Of a DNA stretch of 27,205 nt, positions 5,616-27,205 are shown piece after piece. The stretch is from a virus. Both the position numbers and the translations under genes were made by a program. Positions within the stretch are counted from its first letter, which is position 1; every line of letters begins with the position of its first letter. The DNA lies in the IMG/VR virus record IMGVR_UViG_3300035698_006116, positions 1-27,205 of that record; one strand, given 5' to 3'. Under the pieces are notes generated by a model, which did no database searches, was not told where the DNA came from, and was given only the letters and a program-made list of their open reading frames with translations.

Positions 5616-5906
5616 GTGATTGTGGAACAAGATAAATTCATGAAAGCTGTCCAAGAGCTGTCAACTATGATCGCAGGCGCTGCCTACACTCAATATAATG
5701 CGTACGTTGCTGCTGGGTTTGACGATGAGCAGGCGATGCACTTGACTGCTAATTTTGTTGAAATGCTACAAGAAAAGTTCATGGATCGTAATCACAGTGT
5801 GCCTGAGATGCCTAGATGCTACACTACTGAAGCGTGTGTCTCAGAGCAGACTGCTATTTGTGAAGCATGTGAATTTAATAAAACTTGTGCTAGGGAACTG
5901 AGCTGA
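5616..5906 (+). CDS. Helical hypothetical protein with C-terminal cysteine cluster
   Basis: 96 residues; GTG at 5616 with GGAG 7 nt before it (GTG 5622 is an alternative). Residues about 8-55 are helical (AVQELSTMIAGAAYTQYNAY, then GFDDEQAMHLTANFVEML), a pattern common in small phage proteins. The C-terminal third has CYTTEACVSEQ, AICEACEF and KTCAREL, six cysteines that could form a zinc site. The stop TGA overlaps the nuclease start ATG by one base. Not recognised by name. Confidence 0.6.
   Translation: MIVEQDKFMKAVQELSTMIAGAAYTQYNAYVAAGFDDEQAMHLTANFVEMLQEKFMDRNHSVPEMPRCYTTEACVSEQTAICEACEFNKTCARELS
5794..5811 (+). repeat. 18-bp direct repeat, copy 2
   Basis: Second copy of ACAGTGTGCCTGAGATGC, 336 bp after the first. 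Confidence 0.8.
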
Positions 5907-6340
5907 TGACAAAGGCTGGAAACCGTAAGTGGGGTGAAACTAAGTTCACTAAGCATTTCTGCAAGTGCATTGAACATTGTAACGGCGTTACGTTTGCTGT
6001 TGTGGGAAGTGCTATGCAACAATCTGGCTGGCCTGATAGATACATCTGTCATAGAAGGTGGCGAGGATGGATCGAATTCAAGATGGGGTATGCTTCTTTA
6101 AGTGAGATTCAACATAAAGTCATTACTGATCTTGTAGAACGTGGTGATGTCGTCTACGTTGGCAGGATTCGCTGCAATAACTTCTTTGAACTATGTCATC
6201 CGCTCAGCGGTCAGACTCTTATGGCAACTGATCTAACCCCTTTTTGTTTAGATGAACAACGATCTGGGATGGAGTTCCTACGGATGTTGACTGTTTGTAT
6301 GGCACTTAGAACTTATTCAGGTTCACCGTTGAGTCGCTGA
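5906..6340 (+). CDS. VRR-NUC-like PD-(D/E)xK nuclease
   Basis: 144 residues. The active-site pattern of the VRR-NUC/Holliday-resolvase-like nuclease superfamily is present in order: an N-terminal helix with E11 (GETKFTKHF), GWPDR (P43-D44), IEFK (E57, K59), then SEIQ with Q69 and a helix leading to GDVVYVGR. In phages such enzymes act on branched or nicked DNA during replication, recombination or packaging. It sits at the end of the early cluster and its stop codon is the first base of the repeat region that follows, so it may act at that region (inference). The C-terminal 60 residues are less typical. Confidence 0.7.
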   Translation: MTKAGNRKWGETKFTKHFCKCIEHCNGVTFAVVGSAMQQSGWPDRYICHRRWRGWIEFKMGYASLSEIQHKVITDLVERGDVVYVGRIRCNNFFELCHPLSGQTLMATDLTPFCLDEQRSGMEFLRMLTVCMALRTYSGSPLSR

Positions 6341-6354
6341 TTGTCAGTTATCCT
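6340..6354 (+). repeat. 15-bp iteron-like repeat, copy 1 (one mismatch)
   Basis: ATTGTCAGTTATCCT; differs from copies 3 and 4 by A for G at position 7. It forms an inverted pair with copy 2. Confidence 0.75.
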
Positions 6355-6360
6355 ACAAGA

Positions 6361-6377
6361 ATGTTTTTCAAAAACAT
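6361..6377. repeat. Perfect hairpin inside the inverted repeat pair
   Basis: ATGTTTTT-c-AAAAACAT, eight base pairs around one base, nested between repeat copies 1 and 2, so the whole 6340-6393 segment can form a cruciform or an RNA stem-loop. Confidence 0.7.
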
Positions 6378-6378
6378 A

Positions 6379-6393
6379 GGGATAACCGACAAT
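6379..6393 (-). repeat. 15-bp iteron-like repeat, copy 2 (inverted)
   Basis: The reverse complement reads ATTGTCGGTTATCCC, matching copies 3 and 4 over 14 bases. Confidence 0.75.
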
Positions 6394-6620
6394 GGTAAGT
6401 CTACAAATATTCTCTGATTCTCTCAGAATTAAGTACTACATTACAGGTATACCAATATAGAAGTATATATAGAGTAGATAAGGTAATTTGTTTTTATGTA
6501 TAAATATATATATATACTGTACTTACACTATATAGAATTGTTGTTTAGACGGTGACAATAGAGTGACATTGATGAACGTAGAAAAAACTGACTTTTTGAT
6601 CGGTGCCCTGTGGACTTGCG

Positions 6621-6635
6621 ATTGTCGGTTATCCT
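6621..6635 (+). repeat. 15-bp iteron-like repeat, copy 3
   Basis: ATTGTCGGTTATCCT, identical to copy 4. Confidence 0.8.
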
Positions 6636-6657
6636 TGTGCTTTCACTGTATTGTGGC

Positions 6658-6672
6658 ATTGTCGGTTATCCT
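6658..6672 (+). repeat. 15-bp iteron-like repeat, copy 4
   Basis: ATTGTCGGTTATCCT, 37 bp downstream of copy 3 and 18 bp before the next start codon, where a bound protein could also affect expression. Confidence 0.8.
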
Positions 6673-6689
6673 ATGAAAGAGCTTTTACA

Positions 6690-7034
6690 ATGATCAACGA
6701 TCCATCTATATTGAAACATTTACCCGAAGATATTCAAAAGACTAATCAAGATGAGAATGAATACCATACCATGAAAAAGGCGTGGGATGAGAGTTGGGCG
6801 GAGTATCAGCAGTTCAATCGGAAGAAAACGCGAGAAGCATTATTAAATGCGTTAGTTCCTGAGCGGTGCTGCCCGGTCTGTGAGCGCGTCTTTCTACGGT
6901 CGAGGTCCTGGGTGTTCATGACTCAGCGCCTCTTCTTCATCTTGAGAAACACTGAAAGAAACCCAGTTCAACGTGACATATTCATAGAAAAGAAGATCGT
7001 ATGTCGCAGTTGCTACTATAAATATTTTGTTTAA
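6690..7034 (+). CDS. Zinc-ribbon hypothetical protein
   Basis: 114 residues from ATG 6690; a longer ORF starts at 6603, but its first part is encoded by the 15-bp repeats and reads poorly. The N-terminal half is helical and charged (MKKAWDESWAEYQQFNRKKTRE). The C-terminal half has CCPVCERV and, about 45 residues later, CRSCYYKYF, a four-cysteine zinc-ribbon arrangement with a basic insert. Being the first gene after the repeat region, it is a candidate for a protein acting there, but nothing in the sequence proves it. SD is weak (GAAAGAG). Confidence 0.55.
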   Translation: MINDPSILKHLPEDIQKTNQDENEYHTMKKAWDESWAEYQQFNRKKTREALLNALVPERCCPVCERVFLRSRSWVFMTQRLFFILRNTERNPVQRDIFIEKKIVCRSCYYKYFV

Positions 7035-7057: not shown

Positions 7058-7153
7058 GTGAAGCAAAAAATTGATCAAACGTTTACGATTCCGAAAGGTT
7101 ACTTTGTAACGCAAGTTAATCTAGATGCATTAAATCAGGACCATAGAATATGA
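7058..7153 (+). CDS. 31-34 residue protein, start unclear (possible frameshift)
   Basis: GTG at 7058 begins MKQKIDQTFTIPKGYFVTQV and ends at TGA 7151-7153, overlapping the next ATG as ATGA, which argues it is translated. There is no SD for the GTG. An ATG at 7048 with AAGGA 10 nt upstream is one base out of frame: removing one A from AAAAAC (7051-7056) would give MKTVKQKIDQTF. A homopolymer length error or a true mutation could explain this. Function unknown. Confidence 0.45.
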   Translation: MKQKIDQTFTIPKGYFVTQVNLDALNQDHRI

Positions 7154-7359
7154 GTGACATTTTTAAACTGTACGAGAAACGTTACACGTTAGATTCAGCT
7201 GCTTTGATCTCAGCACCTCTTGACGCAGAACTCACGTTAAGTGAATTTGCTTATCAAGCAGATTGGTCCACGAGTTACCAATGGAAACTTGAGAATGATC
7301 GGGTCAAAACTATCTCAGAAGAAACGAAAAAAGTTATTGACTCCGTACTGCAACTGTGA
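7150..7359 (+). CDS. Cro/CI-like helix-turn-helix protein
   Basis: 69 residues. The stretch LTLSEFAYQADWSTSYQWKL (about 29-48) followed by ENDRVKTISEETKKVIDSVL matches the HTH layout of XRE/Cro proteins: helix 2 (SEFAYQA), turn, recognition helix (STSYQWKLEN) and a closing helix after an IS.ET motif. It would bind DNA, perhaps the 15-bp repeats or the dyad before the terminase operon (inference). Its own 3' end carries the -35 of a strong promoter. Start ATG overlaps the upstream gene. Alternative: a divergent HTH-like fold without DNA binding. Confidence 0.5.
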   Translation: MSDIFKLYEKRYTLDSAALISAPLDAELTLSEFAYQADWSTSYQWKLENDRVKTISEETKKVIDSVLQL

Positions 7360-9708: not shown

Positions 9709-10608
9709 ATGGTTTCATGGATGAAGATGGGTACGTTACCGCCGCTGTCTGTAGATGAGGAGTACCCGCCACCGACTCGAATGTCGATAGAGACGTCGAG
9801 TAAGTGTAATCGCAGATGCTCGTTCTGCCCAACAAGCACTGGGATCCGAGATCACGAGCAACGACTCATGACTGACAGTCTCTTTAAGCATATCGCTAGT
9901 CAAATACCTAAGGAAACAAAGATCATCCAACTGTTCCGCTTGAACGAACCGTTACTCGATCCGAAGCTTTGCAAACGAGCCGCATATCTTCGTTCTATTG
10001 GCTATAAAGGGACGATCTACGTTGCGACGAATGGTGACACGTTAACATCGCGCGATGATCTGGATTTCGCTATTGAAAAGATATGGGCTCTCAAGCGCGC
10101 TGGCGTCAACGTTCTTAGTGTGGACATTTACGATGACGAAACAGCTGAGAAACGTGTTAACCGAATGAACGAGCTTACTAAACTTTTGCTTAGGTTCAGC
10201 AGCCATTTCCGCTGGACAGACAGTCGGTACCAGAGCCACGCTCGTAAGTTCATGCATCTTAATGTCACTGACATGAGGCCCAACGCTAAACGAGACAAGA
10301 CTTCTCAATGGCACAACTTCGGTCTTGATATGAATGTGAAGGGAATTGAGGCTCGATGCGCTCGGCCTATGAGACATCAAGTTATCCTCTATAACGGTGA
10401 GGTCGAGTTCTGCTGTGCGACTAATCCCGGTGATAAGCGCTTAGAGCGTTGCGGCGATGCTAACCATACATCATTGAAAGAACTATGGAACTGTGAATTA
10501 ATGCATCGCTACCGCTTGAAGCTACAGACTGGTGACAGATCGTTACTGGGATGTGACATATGTGATCTGAAAACAGCGTACGCCCACATAACGAGGAGAG
10601 TGAAATGA
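9709..10608 (+). CDS. Radical SAM enzyme with SPASM-like C-terminal cluster
   Basis: 299 residues. CNRRCSFC at 33-40 is the CxxxCxxC motif that holds the radical SAM [4Fe-4S] cluster. The usual GGEP appears as RLNEPLLDP (78-86), and IYVATNGD (103-110) is the next conserved strand. C217, C235/C236, C248, C282 and C285 form a SPASM-like auxiliary iron-sulfur region (ILYNGEVEFCC is typical). Such enzymes use S-adenosylmethionine radicals to modify peptides, proteins, nucleotides or sugars. SD AGGAGG lies at the end of the preceding gene; ATGA overlap with the next gene. The substrate cannot be told; peptide or DNA-base modification are both possible. Confidence 0.8.
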   Translation: MVSWMKMGTLPPLSVDEEYPPPTRMSIETSSKCNRRCSFCPTSTGIRDHEQRLMTDSLFKHIASQIPKETKIIQLFRLNEPLLDPKLCKRAAYLRSIGYKGTIYVATNGDTLTSRDDLDFAIEKIWALKRAGVNVLSVDIYDDETAEKRVNRMNELTKLLLRFSSHFRWTDSRYQSHARKFMHLNVTDMRPNAKRDKTSQWHNFGLDMNVKGIEARCARPMRHQVILYNGEVEFCCATNPGDKRLERCGDANHTSLKELWNCELMHRYRLKLQTGDRSLLGCDICDLKTAYAHITRRVK

Positions 10609-11059: not shown

Positions 11060-11686
11060 ATGCCAGCTCCAGTAGAAGGACATGCAAGACAATGTAAAGC
11101 GAAATCAACAGTCACGAAACGACGCTGTAGACGGTGGGCTTTAAGAGGTAGTGACTATTGCCAATTCCATGGAGGACGGCGTGCTGCATCGCAACAGTTT
11201 CATAGAAAGTGGTATCAAGTGCCAGGTTACTATTCTAAATTCCTAGGTCCTAGACTGTGCAAACAAGTTGAGGCTGCTCTTAATCAACCGCATGACGAAC
11301 AAGTATCACTGTACGAAGAGCTTGCAATAACTCGAGCTGCTGCGGTCCAAGCCTTACAACTGTGTGAAGTACTGTACGATCCTGAGAAATCTAAGAAGCT
11401 AGATGATGATACAAAAGCAGCTCTCGTACAGCTACAGCATTCAGCAATGATCAACGTTAAAGACATGGTCCTTGCTGCTGCTAAGATCGAGAAGGAATCA
11501 AAAGAAACAGTTAGTATCAAGACTATTAACTTGATCGTGACCCAGATCATTCTTGCCGTGAACGATGCATGCGGTGCTGACAACATTGAACTTGCAGACG
11601 CCATCGGCCTTGCTATAGACAACAGAGTGAGACTACCGTTGAACGATAAAATGTCACCGGAGATTGAACTCAACTTTTTATCTTAA
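11060..11686 (+). CDS. Putative terminase small subunit with HGG zinc-binding head
   Basis: 208 residues. The N-terminus has CKAKSTVTKRRCRRWALRGS then CQFHGGRR: a C-x(9)-C...C-x2-H-GG pattern found on several phage proteins near terminases. The rest is helical with KLDDDTKAALVQLQHSAMIN and an acidic middle. Location directly before the large terminase, at the head of the operon behind a strong promoter, is the main reason for the small-terminase call, which would recognise DNA and regulate TerL. No HTH is obvious, so an HGG-domain regulator is the alternative. Confidence 0.5.
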   Translation: MPAPVEGHARQCKAKSTVTKRRCRRWALRGSDYCQFHGGRRAASQQFHRKWYQVPGYYSKFLGPRLCKQVEAALNQPHDEQVSLYEELAITRAAAVQALQLCEVLYDPEKSKKLDDDTKAALVQLQHSAMINVKDMVLAAAKIEKESKETVSIKTINLIVTQIILAVNDACGADNIELADAIGLAIDNRVRLPLNDKMSPEIELNFLS

Positions 11687-11704: not shown

Positions 11705-13582
11705 ATGCCAATCAAGCTTAACGTCAAAATTCCTGACCATTTGAAAGTTCTGTTCGAGAAACAGGATATGGTTGAGGTAAGAGGTCATGACGATAAGACG
11801 CATCAAGCACTCCTACTCTGGTTATGGTCTAAAGAAGATGGTATCTGGATTTCAAAACATCCAGATAAAGCATACCAACGTCTCGATGAGATGTTTGCTA
11901 TGTATCCCAAGCTTCCTCGAAATAAGATCACGTTCGCTGCTCCAAAAGATCTCGACTACAAAGACTTCACGCACTGCGTAATCGAGAGCCCCGATGAAAT
12001 GCCTGAGGCAGTAGCATGGACCCGTGAGCACGTCACCGGGGAACTTAGACTCTTGCTTCCCCACGCCGAGGACCAGATCGGCTCTTACATCGATACCTTA
12101 GGACTGACACTCACTGAACGTAAGGATCTTCTCCGGTCGGTTCGTTGCAGTGAGTGTTCGGATTATAATGAGCACGACCTAATCGCTTCAATCTCTCGTA
12201 CAGCTTTCTATGAGTTCGTTAAAGAGTTCTGGGCCGAGATCGTGCCTGAGAAATACGTAGACAACTGGCATATACGTTATCTCTGTGCTGAAATACAGCT
12301 TGTAGCAGAGCGCGTCTTTGATAACCGACCAAAGCTCTACGATCTGATCATTAACATAGCACCGGGTTCAACAAAGTCTCTTATCGCTTCGGTCTTTTTG
12401 CCTGCTTGGCTTTGGACTAAAATGCCGTCTCTTCGGTATATTGGCGGTTCATATGCGCATCCACTTGCCATGGATCTTTCTCGCAAGAGCCGCCAACTTA
12501 TTAAGTCTGCGAAATACCAACTTTGTTTCCCAGTTAAGATGCTTAAAGATCAAGATGCTAAGTCATTCTTCATGAATGAATCTGGCGGCATGCGCCTTGG
12601 GATGGGTACTGGTGGTATTGCTGGTTTTCACGCCCACCTTATTGTTGTTGACGACCCCTTGGACCCACAGAAGGCACTCTCCGATGCTGAGTTGCTTGCT
12701 GCTAATAAATGGATCAAAGAGTCACTGGCTCAGCGTAAGGTGGATCAACAGATCACTCCGATGATCCTTATCATGCAACGATTGCATGAGATGGATCCTA
12801 CAGGTGACATGCTTGATTACACTGAAGAAGGCCTAGTTAAGCATATCTGCATTCCTGCTGAATTGACAGATGACGTACGGCCGCGAGAGTTAATGTCCAA
12901 GTACGTTGATGGCTTGATGGATCCTGTTCGCTTGACTAGAGTGACATTGAAAGCCAAGCGGTTGCTGGGTAATTACATGTACTCAGGCCAGTATCTCCAA
13001 ACGCCGACAATGCCTTCTGGCGGTATGTTCAAGTGGGAGATGGTCAAGGTTGAAAGATGTAACGTCAAGTTCAAAAAGATTGTTCGATATTGGGATAAGG
13101 CCGGCACGCAAGACGACGGCTGTAAAACAGCCGGCGTTAAAATGGCGTTAGATGAGAACGATGAGATTTGGCTCTTGCACGTCGTGCTCGGTCAATGGGA
13201 CAGCGGTCTTCGTGAACGAATCATCAAACAGACTGCTGAATCTGACGGCAGGGGTGTCATCATCGGAATCGAACAAGAACCTGGTAGCGGTGGCAAGGAA
13301 TCTGCGCAAAACACTGTAAAGAATCTTCGTGGTTTCCGGGTTCGTGTTGACCGACCTACCGGAGATAAAGTTATTCGTGCTGACGCATATAGCACGCAAG
13401 TCAATGAAGGCCTCGTACACGCTTTGCCTGGTGAATGGTTGATACAATATCTAGACGAAATTAAGCTCTTCCCGCTAAGCAAGTTTAAAGATCAAGTTGA
13501 TGCTTCCAGTGGAGCGTACAAGCTACTAAGTGCTCAAGTGATCCGTGTCGGCGGTGGTGTTAATAAGAAGAGGTCAGCGTAA
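11705..13582 (+). CDS. terL: Terminase large subunit (ATPase and nuclease)
   Basis: 625 residues. Motor of DNA packaging: the ATPase drives DNA into the procapsid through the portal and the nuclease cuts concatemers. A Walker A variant NIAPGSTKS lies at about 217-225, Walker B LIVVDDP at 312-318. An RNase H-like nuclease domain follows, with RYWDKAGT (D464), IGIEQEPGSGGK (E523/E525) and KFKDQVDASSGA (D599). About 190 residues precede the ATPase, longer than usual, including CSEC at 148-151; that extension is unlike standard TerL and may be lineage-specific. No SD at the start. The stop overlaps the portal start (TAATG). Confidence 0.92.
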   Translation: MPIKLNVKIPDHLKVLFEKQDMVEVRGHDDKTHQALLLWLWSKEDGIWISKHPDKAYQRLDEMFAMYPKLPRNKITFAAPKDLDYKDFTHCVIESPDEMPEAVAWTREHVTGELRLLLPHAEDQIGSYIDTLGLTLTERKDLLRSVRCSECSDYNEHDLIASISRTAFYEFVKEFWAEIVPEKYVDNWHIRYLCAEIQLVAERVFDNRPKLYDLIINIAPGSTKSLIASVFLPAWLWTKMPSLRYIGGSYAHPLAMDLSRKSRQLIKSAKYQLCFPVKMLKDQDAKSFFMNESGGMRLGMGTGGIAGFHAHLIVVDDPLDPQKALSDAELLAANKWIKESLAQRKVDQQITPMILIMQRLHEMDPTGDMLDYTEEGLVKHICIPAELTDDVRPRELMSKYVDGLMDPVRLTRVTLKAKRLLGNYMYSGQYLQTPTMPSGGMFKWEMVKVERCNVKFKKIVRYWDKAGTQDDGCKTAGVKMALDENDEIWLLHVVLGQWDSGLRERIIKQTAESDGRGVIIGIEQEPGSGGKESAQNTVKNLRGFRVRVDRPTGDKVIRADAYSTQVNEGLVHALPGEWLIQYLDEIKLFPLSKFKDQVDASSGAYKLLSAQVIRVGGGVNKKRSA

Positions 13583-14955: not shown

Positions 14956-17170
14956 CCAAGCTCTAAAGTATGATCCGACTCGCACTACTCAAATTAGAAA
15001 TTCGTTTTCTAAAGAGATGAAGCAGCGCCTGCGGGCACTGGTTAACTCTTTACAGTTACTTTTCAGTCAAGACTTGTTAGCACTTGACGAAGAGATCTCG
15101 ATCTTTGACAACCAAATAAGAGTGACATTTAATCTTGCTGCGAGATCGACGTATGCTTTTGCTAGTAACTCGACGAAGTTAACTGACTTCAACGCTTGGT
15201 TCAAAGAGCAAATCGATACCAATTTGCTATCTACCGACGCTATATCTGGGAAACCTTGGACACAGACTTACGTTGGTTCTTCTTATCGCAAGGGCATTCT
15301 TCGTGCTTACACTGACACTAACCAACAAAGCTTATCAAAGGGCTTGCCCGGCTATTCAGGATCAAAAGAAGACTTTCTTCGAGACGCTTTTTCTCAAGGC
15401 GAGATGCTTTCGAAACTCGAGCTAATTTCAACGCGCGTTTTTGAAGAACTCAAGGGTGTGACCGCAACAATGAGCCAGCAGATGTCGCGGATCATGGGGC
15501 AAGGACTTGCTGACGGCTTGAATCCGAAAACGATAGCACGTCAGATGTACAGCGATATTGGCAAATTAACTCGAACGCGCTACTTGACTATTGCACGCAC
15601 TGAAGTTATTCGGGCACACGCTGAAGGTCAACTCGATTCGTTTGAAGCACTTGGAGTCGAAGAAATTGGAGCCCAGGTCGAGTGGAGTACTGCCGGTGAC
15701 GACAGGGTCTGTGCTGAGTGTGCTAGCATGGAAGGCCAGATTTTCACTGTTCAAGAAGCCCGCGGCTACATCCCGCTCCATCCAAATTGTAGATGTGCTT
15801 GGATACCAGCGCCTGAGAGAAAAATTAAAGAACAGAAACGAGGACAAGAATCTATCTCTGATCCAGATGATCCGCAGAATACAAGAAAATCAATATACAG
15901 TGACATTGACGAAGCTTCAGGCGGCAAAGTCATCGGCAACCATGATCTCGTACCCGAGCTCTACAAGAAGTATAAGAATAAACCTAGAGTTTCGCAAGCA
16001 ACATGGAATCCGGCACTTCGTGGCGAGATTGACGTGGCGACTATTGCAAAGCTTAAGGACGAGATTGCAATAGACTTTCTTAAAGGTTTACAGTCTGGAG
16101 CAATCAAAGAGCACACGTTCTTACGTGTCGGAGCCAAGACAATTGACCCAATGCTGCGATCGCTGCAAGTAGCTCAAAAAGAAATTGATCTTGTTAATAA
16201 GCATCTGCAAGCTATTCTTAAAAAATCAGCTAAACCTGGAGTTAAGATAAGGCCGATTCCTAAACGGCCAACTATTCGGCTCGCAGAACCAGTATCTGCT
16301 CCAATTAAAGTGCCAACTGTGGCTACCAGTGAAGGAACTAAGTTTGCGACGGCTGAAGAGTACCGGCAGAACTTGCTTGACTTCGCAGCACAGTATCCAA
16401 GAGATACCGTCGGTCTTCGTAACGAGTTGTATCGACTTGGAAATGAACTTAGCGAAGCAAACAGTAAGTATCATCGGATACCCGTTAAGTTTTCAACAAG
16501 AGATGAGAGAACTGCTGCGTTTAAAGTTGTTGACAAATTAAACAAACAAGTAATGGCTTTACAGAAGAAAATAAAGCTTTCAGCGGAGAAACAAAGAACG
16601 TTGTTCGTTGAAGTTGAGAATAAAGCGGGCAATAACGTGATACGTGCAAGCTACAAAAGCGAAAAAGCAAATCCGAAATATATAAAAGCAGCTGATGAAG
16701 TAATGAGCTACATTCCTAAGACTAGAGAAACTCAGTTTGGGCGAGGCGTTGCAAAAGTAGGAGTCCAGCAAGATAAGCAGAATAGCAACTTGCTTGGCTC
16801 ATACAACAAGTACAGCGATGAGATCACAATGAAGACTAGCTCTGAAACTACGTTTACTCACGAGTTTACGCATCATTTACAGTATCAATTAAAAGGGTTT
16901 AAAGCAGCTGATACTGCGTTCTTTAAAGCTCGCACAGCTGGCGATAAGCTTGAGGAGCTTTGGAGTAACGTACAGTATAAAAAAGACGAATGGAGCAGGA
17001 TGGGTGCCAAAGCAGAATATGCGGGTCGAGTTTACGATAACGGATCTATTGGTGAAGTAGGAGCAGTTGCAATGGAGCTCTTTTGGGAAAACCCACTTAG
17101 TTTTGCAAAGAAAGACCCTGAATGGTTTAACTTTCTTATCTCTCAACTAAAAGGTATTCCTATATCATGA
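14939..17170 (+). CDS. Minor head protein (MuF/SPP1 gp7-like) fused to HEXXH metalloprotease-like domain
   Basis: 743 residues, about twice a plain minor head protein. Residues about 140-292 form the head-morphogenesis module: a helix ending TIARTEVIRAHAEGQLDSFE, then WSTAGDDRVCAECASMEGQI and PLHPNCRCAWIP, the canonical cysteine/histidine pattern. A Lys/Pro-rich, helical linker (about 340-540) leads to a C-terminal domain with THEFTHHLQY (H641-E642, H645; the HEXXH zinc motif) and EVGAVAMELF (E706 or E713, possible third ligand). MuF proteins in temperate phages are known to carry polymorphic effector domains; a virion-delivered protease acting in the host is inference. Overlaps portal and downstream genes. 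Confidence 0.75.
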   Translation: MKLTTNQALKYDPTRTTQIRNSFSKEMKQRLRALVNSLQLLFSQDLLALDEEISIFDNQIRVTFNLAARSTYAFASNSTKLTDFNAWFKEQIDTNLLSTDAISGKPWTQTYVGSSYRKGILRAYTDTNQQSLSKGLPGYSGSKEDFLRDAFSQGEMLSKLELISTRVFEELKGVTATMSQQMSRIMGQGLADGLNPKTIARQMYSDIGKLTRTRYLTIARTEVIRAHAEGQLDSFEALGVEEIGAQVEWSTAGDDRVCAECASMEGQIFTVQEARGYIPLHPNCRCAWIPAPERKIKEQKRGQESISDPDDPQNTRKSIYSDIDEASGGKVIGNHDLVPELYKKYKNKPRVSQATWNPALRGEIDVATIAKLKDEIAIDFLKGLQSGAIKEHTFLRVGAKTIDPMLRSLQVAQKEIDLVNKHLQAILKKSAKPGVKIRPIPKRPTIRLAEPVSAPIKVPTVATSEGTKFATAEEYRQNLLDFAAQYPRDTVGLRNELYRLGNELSEANSKYHRIPVKFSTRDERTAAFKVVDKLNKQVMALQKKIKLSAEKQRTLFVEVENKAGNNVIRASYKSEKANPKYIKAADEVMSYIPKTRETQFGRGVAKVGVQQDKQNSNLLGSYNKYSDEITMKTSSETTFTHEFTHHLQYQLKGFKAADTAFFKARTAGDKLEELWSNVQYKKDEWSRMGAKAEYAGRVYDNGSIGEVGAVAMELFWENPLSFAKKDPEWFNFLISQLKGIPIS

Positions 17171-26382: not shown

Positions 26383-26383
26383 C

Positions 26384-27205
26384 ATGCGAAATTTACTAAT
26401 TCTTTTGGCCATCTTGGCTTGTGTGGCTCCTGTGTGGGGCATTGAACTAAGAGAAGACACTGCTGCTCAGATCGTACCTATCGGTCCATTTGTCGATCCT
26501 AGCACAGGTGCATTTGAAACGGCTCTCGTGTTCCGTGCAGCAGATATAGAGATCAGCAAGAACGGTGCGGCTTTTGGGGCAAAGAGCGATGCTACAGCTC
26601 CTTCTCATCTTGGGGAAGGGATGTATGCGGTCACCCTAAATGCAACGGATACATCAACGGCAGGGTTTATCACTATCAACGTTATTGACCCGAATATTGC
26701 GTCTGGTGCTTCTGATCCCAATGCTTTATTCACTCAGCCTTATGTTAATATTTTGACGAACAACTGGTATGACTCCAAATACGGAACAGATGAGCTTGAT
26801 ACAAGCGTAGTTCAGTGGCTTGGAACTGCTGCGGCCACACCAACTACCGCTGGCGTCCCTGAAGTAGACTCAACTTATTGGCATGGCGAACTTATACCAG
26901 ATCCAAACATAACTGGCGTGCCGGAAGTTGATGTCACTTATGTTGGTGGGGTAATTTATTCAACGGCGCTCATCACCTCTGCATCTAACCAAACAGATAC
27001 AATAGCTGCTTTGGGAACGTATACAGCTGTAACTACTGCTGATCTGTCTGCTCATGATGCCAATATGGTGTCGGCAGTCGCTGGTGCTGCTGGTGATCCT
27101 TGGACGGCCACACTACCCGGAAGCTATACAGGGAATCAGGCAGGCAAGATTCTAGCTGATATGAACAGTGTGGTATTACCAGCGATACAGACTGATTTAG
27201 ATAAC
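26384..27205 (+). CDS. Tail/baseplate-like protein with signal peptide (3'-truncated by window)
   Basis: 274 residues, open at the window end. ATG 26384 follows AGGAG and a stop 2 nt before. Signal peptide MRNLLILLAILACVAPVWG. Then IVPIGPFVDPSTGAFETALV, ISKNGAAFGAKSDATAPSHL, GMYAVTLNATDTSTAGFITI match the recurring phage tail-associated N-terminal domain in which GPF.D..dG, LsKnGa and G.Y...L.atDt..G are conserved. Later repeats (VGGVIYSTALI, PWTATLPGSYTGNQAGKILA) recall the collagen-free trimeric fibre segments with lPgsY..g.AG. With its signal peptide it forms a set with the two genes upstream. Confidence 0.7.
   Translation, partial: MRNLLILLAILACVAPVWGIELREDTAAQIVPIGPFVDPSTGAFETALVFRAADIEISKNGAAFGAKSDATAPSHLGEGMYAVTLNATDTSTAGFITINVIDPNIASGASDPNALFTQPYVNILTNNWYDSKYGTDELDTSVVQWLGTAAATPTTAGVPEVDSTYWHGELIPDPNITGVPEVDVTYVGGVIYSTALITSASNQTDTIAALGTYTAVTTADLSAHDANMVSAVAGAAGDPWTATLPGSYTGNQAGKILADMNSVVLPAIQTDLDN

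Follow-up and report, generated by a model that had tools for sequence, protein, structure and literature searches.

A mirror-symmetric repeat element with a weak AT-rich core precedes a zinc-ribbon gene in uncultured tailed phages and is a candidate replication origin

The stretch of DNA analysed here, referred to as the window, is the 27,205-bp virus record IMGVR_UViG_3300035698_006116, in which terminase, portal and head-protein genes are present by comparison with PHROG. The genes and features in and around its principal non-coding gap are as follows.

5906-6340, + strand: small standalone nuclease of 144 aa, predicted Holliday-junction-resolvase fold, VRR-NUC-like (PHROG, AF2, Foldseek, Pfam)
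6340-6354, + strand: repeat copy 1, outer, inverted relative to copy 2 and abutting the nuclease stop codon
6361-6377, no strand: 8-bp perfect palindrome ATGTTTTT-C-AAAAACAT, between copies 1 and 2
6371-6405, no strand: left arm of the long inverted repeat, containing copy 2
6379-6393, - strand: repeat copy 2, within the left arm, with one mismatch in the 15-mer
6406-6608, no strand: AT-rich core, in which the window's least stable 80 bp start at 6454
6609-6643, no strand: right arm of the long inverted repeat, containing copy 3
6621-6635, + strand: repeat copy 3, within the right arm
6658-6672, + strand: repeat copy 4, outer
6690-7034, + strand: zinc-ribbon protein (CPxC ... CxxC), the next gene downstream of the element
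7150-7359, + strand: small HTH-like protein, with synteny conserved in several relatives
11060-11686, + strand: gene in the terminase small-subunit position, named from that position by synteny
11705-13582, + strand: terminase large subunit (Pfam and PHROG scans)

The protein encoded upstream of the gap matches PHROG 93 (endonuclease, E 5.3e-5), and its AF2 model (pLDDT 85.0) aligns in Foldseek with the archaeal Hjc structures 2wiw and 2wcw (E 5.7e-4 and 6.9e-4), the VRR_NUC structure 4qbn being a weaker match (E 0.018). The Pfam VRR_NUC profile is matched by two of the 11 aligned members of the nuclease family (best 2.9e-4), the window protein not being one of these, while the alignment displays invariant PDR and ExK columns. 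As modelled, the neighbouring nuclease has the PD-(D/E)xK core and the resolvase fold of a VRR-NUC enzyme. The zinc-ribbon protein on the other side of the gap retains invariant C-P-x-C and C-x-x-C motifs in 11 aligned members. Seven members of its family (window, L005, L013, L086, L087, L089 and L092) gave no Pfam match over the cut-off and no convincing PHROG match, the family profile had no significant match among solved structures, and the model of the window protein (pLDDT 82.7) had no structural match with an E-value of 0.001 or lower, the weak matches being HNH-like. Four of the 12 proteins (L117, L122, L087 and L089) had no match in an annotated phage collection, and one profile scan of bacterial genomes returned no relative. 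The family appears to be previously undescribed. Homologues of the HTH-like protein in L089 and L092 gave weak HTH matches below the cut-off, and a sigma-70 region-4-like protein is encoded after the zinc-ribbon gene in L087 (below cut-off) and L091, with a similar ORF recognized by eye in L122. Further downstream, the window ORF at 9709-10608 has CxxxCxxC near its N terminus and resembles, by eye, a radical SAM enzyme; one protein of the relative G009 matches Radical_SAM/SPASM.

The initial annotation had described four 15-bp repeats in this region. All four copies of ATTGTCRGTTATCC are present with at most one mismatch, inside one non-coding gap region and nowhere else in the 27.2-kb window. 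A 14-mer scan of the whole window, allowing up to one mismatch, returned exactly four matches versus none for the reversed control pattern, showing that the motif is not scattered across the contig. With three mismatches allowed, 1.54 matches are expected and four were reached by 10 of 100 shuffles; the repeat count alone is thus unremarkable, and the weight rests on the near-identity and clustering of the copies. The proposed inverted pair at 6340 and 6379, enclosing a perfect 8-bp hairpin, was borne out by folding: copy 1, the palindrome and copy 2 form one hairpin in single-stranded DNA (z -3.86), with none of 200 shuffles as stable. The gap, 6341-6689, is indeed the longest internal gene-free stretch; the window end at 26383-27205, considered as a longer one, is actually occupied by an open reading frame that continues past the contig end. 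Copies 2 and 3 sit in a 35-nt inverted repeat that the initial annotation had missed, 83% complementary and with arms 203 nt apart. The two extra outer copies are found in the window only, a search of IMG/VR with two tandem motif copies returned no match, and the 15-mer pair was not seen outside this phage.

Neither the nuclease nor the zinc-ribbon protein identified any relatives when used singly as a query. A terminase search yielded 154, and 80 loci were retained. Among them, L005 and L013 display the order seen in the window (nuclease, gap, zinc-ribbon ORF, HTH gene, gene in the terminase small-subunit position), and the gap of each has an AT-rich core flanked by long inverted arms, the letters being mostly different. 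The set was enlarged with nuclease and zinc-ribbon profiles, first by L086, L087, L089, L091 and L092 and later by L117, L121, L122 and L141; L123-L125, which are near-identical to L122, were counted with it as one, and L001-L004, L088, L090, L096-L098, L115, L116, L118-L120, L137-L140, L142 and L143 were dropped as repeats of counted loci. In 12 of the 12 distinct phages carrying the zinc-ribbon gene an inverted repeat lies directly upstream of it, including the four (L117, L121, L122 and L141) that were found via the zinc-ribbon protein and inspected afterwards. In L087, L089 and L092 other genes separate the nuclease from the element, yet the element still adjoins the zinc-ribbon gene. The 12 phages are related through their zinc-ribbon, nuclease or terminase genes and are therefore not independent, and the element sequences all derive from virus contigs of public metagenome collections, several of which are fragments. 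The element thus defined is approximately 200-320 bp in length, comprises two inverted arms around an AT-rich core and is located upstream of the terminase block. Its arrangement is retained in relatives despite changing neighbours and changing letters. The label 'iterons', applied to the window repeats in the initial annotation, is not apt, because what is conserved is a single pair of inverted arms: the several direct repeats of one initiator site typical of an iteron origin were not found in the 10 other contigs, each of which has a single inverted pair at the element without extra copies beside it (up to two mismatches). Among the abstract starts of the open-licence PMC literature, the matches listed contained no description of this element. 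L121 encodes a tandem pair of the family's zinc-ribbon genes (5902-6443), and in L087 the gene between nuclease and element (1002-1835) matches the 5-hmdU DNA kinase helical domain (E 2.5e-23), which suggests that the DNA of that phage may be hypermodified.

Both components of the element are prominent within the contigs that carry it. Of all spaced inverted repeats in a contig, the element scores highest in 10 of 11 cases, the exception being G018 (15.0 versus 15.5 elsewhere), and the least stable 80 bp, calculated from nearest-neighbour energies, are inside its core in nine of 11. The exceptions to the latter are G013, with four weaker places, and the first of two element copies in G016, with 22; the weakest site of G016 falls in the second copy. 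In L141 the element ranks top on both repeat and stability, a comparison made within its 16.2-kb locus only. All 12 elements in a shuffle set of 11 phages plus the second G016 copy, with L141 left out, beat 300 of 300 dinucleotide shuffles. On a looser measure that includes compact palindromes, the element came first at five of eight element loci and second in the window, L089 and L092. The controls were 62 loci of at least 8 kb that the terminase and nuclease searches had returned and in which no zinc-ribbon element was identified; in this set, which includes near-duplicate contigs, top repeat and weakest site coincide in six, and with a score of at least 15 only in L016 and L093. These two look like further members. 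In L093 a 15-bp inverted repeat follows the nuclease and the contig ends before a zinc-ribbon gene could show, and the locus was left out of the count; L016, in contig G002, has the element without the zinc-ribbon gene and was kept apart from the 12. Two control loci with the nuclease and no detected zinc-ribbon gene, L085 and L095, displayed no repeat scoring 17 or more and no coincidence.

Six long contigs of terminase relatives lacking the zinc-ribbon gene were also inspected, and a clear element was present in G002 and absent from the other five; the element is not universal in the wider terminase-related group. The G002 feature (L016:8025-8183) is an element-like inverted repeat together with the weakest duplex of the contig, approximately 1.8 kb upstream of the terminase large subunit, with no zinc-ribbon gene detected. 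In G004 (the contig of L020) the best spaced repeat (15.0), at about 16741-16840 oriented, is also the second weakest duplex and lies approximately 1.5 kb upstream of the terminase, making this contig a possible weaker member. The second copy in G016 (the contig of L117), at 41518-41741 oriented, has TGGTAACTGATAAT arms, is located away from the zinc-ribbon gene, overlaps the 3' end of an ORF that by eye resembles a sugar-acid synthase and is one ORF upstream of an SNF2 helicase. In G011 (the contig of L089) a 135-bp palindrome of repeated GGCCTAGGAC-like units (37998-38132 oriented), unlike the element, is located upstream of an ORF that by eye is exonuclease-like. The element is less than 2 kb from a contig end in four of 11 contigs (G009, G010, G015 and G016, at 612, 1807, 955 and 1070 bp, respectively), possibly a sign of nearby genome ends or assembly breaks.

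The arms match each other within a phage and differ between phages. Within their first 60 nt the longest identical block is 14-33 bp, and in many cases the match resumes after an interruption by mismatches. Where the arms are separate, the spacers measure 88-203 nt; in L086, L087 and L117 imperfect complementarity continues to the centre of the element. A short motif, AACYGA, occurs at the same offset in both arms of seven of 13 elements (six of 12 phages plus the second G016 copy), compared with 788 of 25,125 random 60-mers (3.1%), and is contained in the 15-mer of the window. This is the pattern that drifting protein-binding sites look like.

Among the replication origins compared, herpes simplex oriS is the closest in layout. 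As described in the excerpted text of PMC12543377, it has an AT-rich spacer with inverted boxes on either side, together with a further box that forms a hairpin with the first. Within the window the order (copy 1, inverted copy 2, AT core, copy 3) is the same, and copies 1 and 2 could form a comparable hairpin; what the elements share as a group is the inverted pair around an AT-rich spacer, with the arms as putative binding boxes. The separation between arms of 88-203 nt contrasts with the short spacer of oriS, and the carriers are phages rather than herpesviruses; the similarity to the OBP/UL9 boxes is one of layout, not descent. UL9/OBP is a superfamily-2 origin-binding helicase; an SNF2-type helicase is encoded in six of the nine phage contigs searched, namely all six over 43 kb, a correspondence that does not imply a link to the element. 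In the Vibrio cholerae phage satellite PLE, semi-palindromic non-coding repeats are needed for replication, according to the excerpted text of PMC7145576. The likeness is that of repeats in a non-coding region of a phage-like element, whereas PLE has direct iterons bound by RepA_N and the window element has facing inverted arms. Lambda ori likewise has four repeats, and the lambda annotation places a junction nuclease (NinG/Rap) upstream of the late regulator Q, but the four O iterons are direct and inside gene O. When duplex stability was calibrated on phage genomes, the lambda origin was not among the weakest sites. The T7 primary-origin region, at the position we presume for it, is AT-rich and the third weakest site of its genome, the two weaker places being at the annotated promoters phiOL and phi6.5; the region itself, however, sits at two annotated promoters, and the best spaced inverted repeat of T7 is elsewhere. 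Weak duplex alone is therefore not diagnostic of an origin, and the T7 calibration favours a promoter as much.

The main rival to a replication origin is a transcription control region. In its favour, the zinc-ribbon gene is preceded by the element in every one of the 12 phages, and the helicase gene of G016 has the second copy nearby, perhaps at the head of another module. The core would then hold a promoter for the zinc-ribbon or late operon, and the arms would serve as paired operators at which a repressor or activator forms a loop; one of the proteins encoded just downstream (zinc-ribbon, HTH or sigma-like) might bind there. HTH-like or sigma-70 region-4-like genes follow the element in several phages, and the two weakest sites in T7 are at promoters. 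Against such a role, a consensus scan revealed no sigma-70-like promoter in the window core, and 13 elements displayed no preference for the direction of the gene: the best sigma-70-like match was on the strand of the zinc-ribbon gene in six, and matches equalled by at most 5% of shuffles occurred in one of 13 on that strand and two of 13 on the other, in a scan whose sigma weights are approximations and whose reach excludes phage-specific promoters. Furthermore, a one-way operon does not need a mirror-symmetric element. Control of transcription is a serious possibility, but one that we consider the less probable. We consider it quite improbable that the element acts as a long RNA hairpin, read from the direction of the nuclease gene and serving as a leader or in processing. 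The arms are complementary for up to 33 bp without a mismatch, but their mismatches, 32 of the G.U type versus 23 of the A.C type, show no clear bias to one RNA strand, and the outer copies 1 and 4 of the window run in the same direction and cannot pair together. Rfam returned no match at the gathering threshold, a search that a new RNA could escape.

The nuclease gene suggests another role, in which extruded arms form a cruciform that the resolvase-like enzyme would cut, generating ends for recombination-dependent replication or for packaging. This enzyme, with its resolvase fold, is encoded upstream in the same module, and standalone VRR-Nuc proteins cut four-way junctions, according to the excerpted text of PMC4103454. 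The complementarity that reaches the centre, imperfectly, in L086, L087 and L117 would fit extrusion, as would the proximity of four of 11 contig ends fit a cut site. However, the 88-203 nt spacers of the elements with separate arms are poor for extrusion, genes may intervene between nuclease and element, as in L087, L089 and L092, and the two G016 copies do not fit a unique packaging site, an interpretation that was dropped for that reason. We regard the cruciform or packaging role as improbable. In invertons, matching inverted arms surround a short invertible segment, and the inverted arms around approximately 90-200 bp of AT-rich DNA resemble this layout. An invertible promoter flanked by recombination sites is nevertheless highly improbable because no recombinase was found in the contigs searched, several of which are fragments: tyrosine recombinases were absent from 10 of 10 contigs (a set without the window and L005) and serine resolvases from eight of eight (a set without L117, L121 and L122). 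In addition, the four near-identical contigs L122-L125 all have the same orientation. Two other candidates were rejected: a mobile element, since the position is fixed relative to the zinc-ribbon gene, and DnaA boxes, since the TTATCC of the window, which we took to be such a box, is not kept in relatives.

The combination of symmetric arms, weak core and fixed position fits a replication origin best. The initial annotation had proposed a replication origin or control region, and this alternative survives, its origin half strengthened because a weak core between inverted sites is conserved; it is nonetheless unproven. Evidence against an origin comes from GC skew, which has no sign change at the element in the five contigs examined, although this is a weak test as nearly all genes run one way; from the T7 and lambda calibration; and from the three of eight loci at which the element is not top when compact palindromes are counted. 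On balance, the chances that DNA replication starts at this element, in a layout resembling that of herpes simplex oriS, are about even. In such an origin a phage initiator protein would bind the inverted arms as two facing sites, the bound protein would open the weak AT-rich core between them, and the phage replisome would be loaded at the opened core. The window would have the site, the 15-mer, twice per flank, and copies 1 and 2 could fold into a hairpin whenever that DNA became single-stranded. By its position directly downstream, the zinc-ribbon gene may encode a partner in origin opening. With respect to the replisome, the gene products of the relative G009 include a CHC2-finger primase-like protein, a family-A DNA polymerase, an SNF2 helicase and a ligase-like protein, the ligase match being below the Pfam cut-off. 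A more far-reaching proposal, which we put forward tentatively and think unlikely to hold in full, is that these phages have an undescribed class of tailed-phage origin: a mirror-image oriS-like module of constant geometry, in which the arm sequences evolve quickly together with the protein that binds them. This module would be coupled to a new zinc-ribbon family that acts there, and G016 at least would have it in duplicate.

Homology gives no guide to replication origins, which makes those of uncultured phages difficult to find. In this case an architecture, the best spaced inverted repeat together with the weakest duplex, upstream of a recognizable gene, locates the element where the letters hardly align. 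Should the element prove to be an operator, it would point to the late switch in a lineage of uncultured phages; should it prove to be an origin, it would provide a computable marker for the start of replication and a new initiation system to study.
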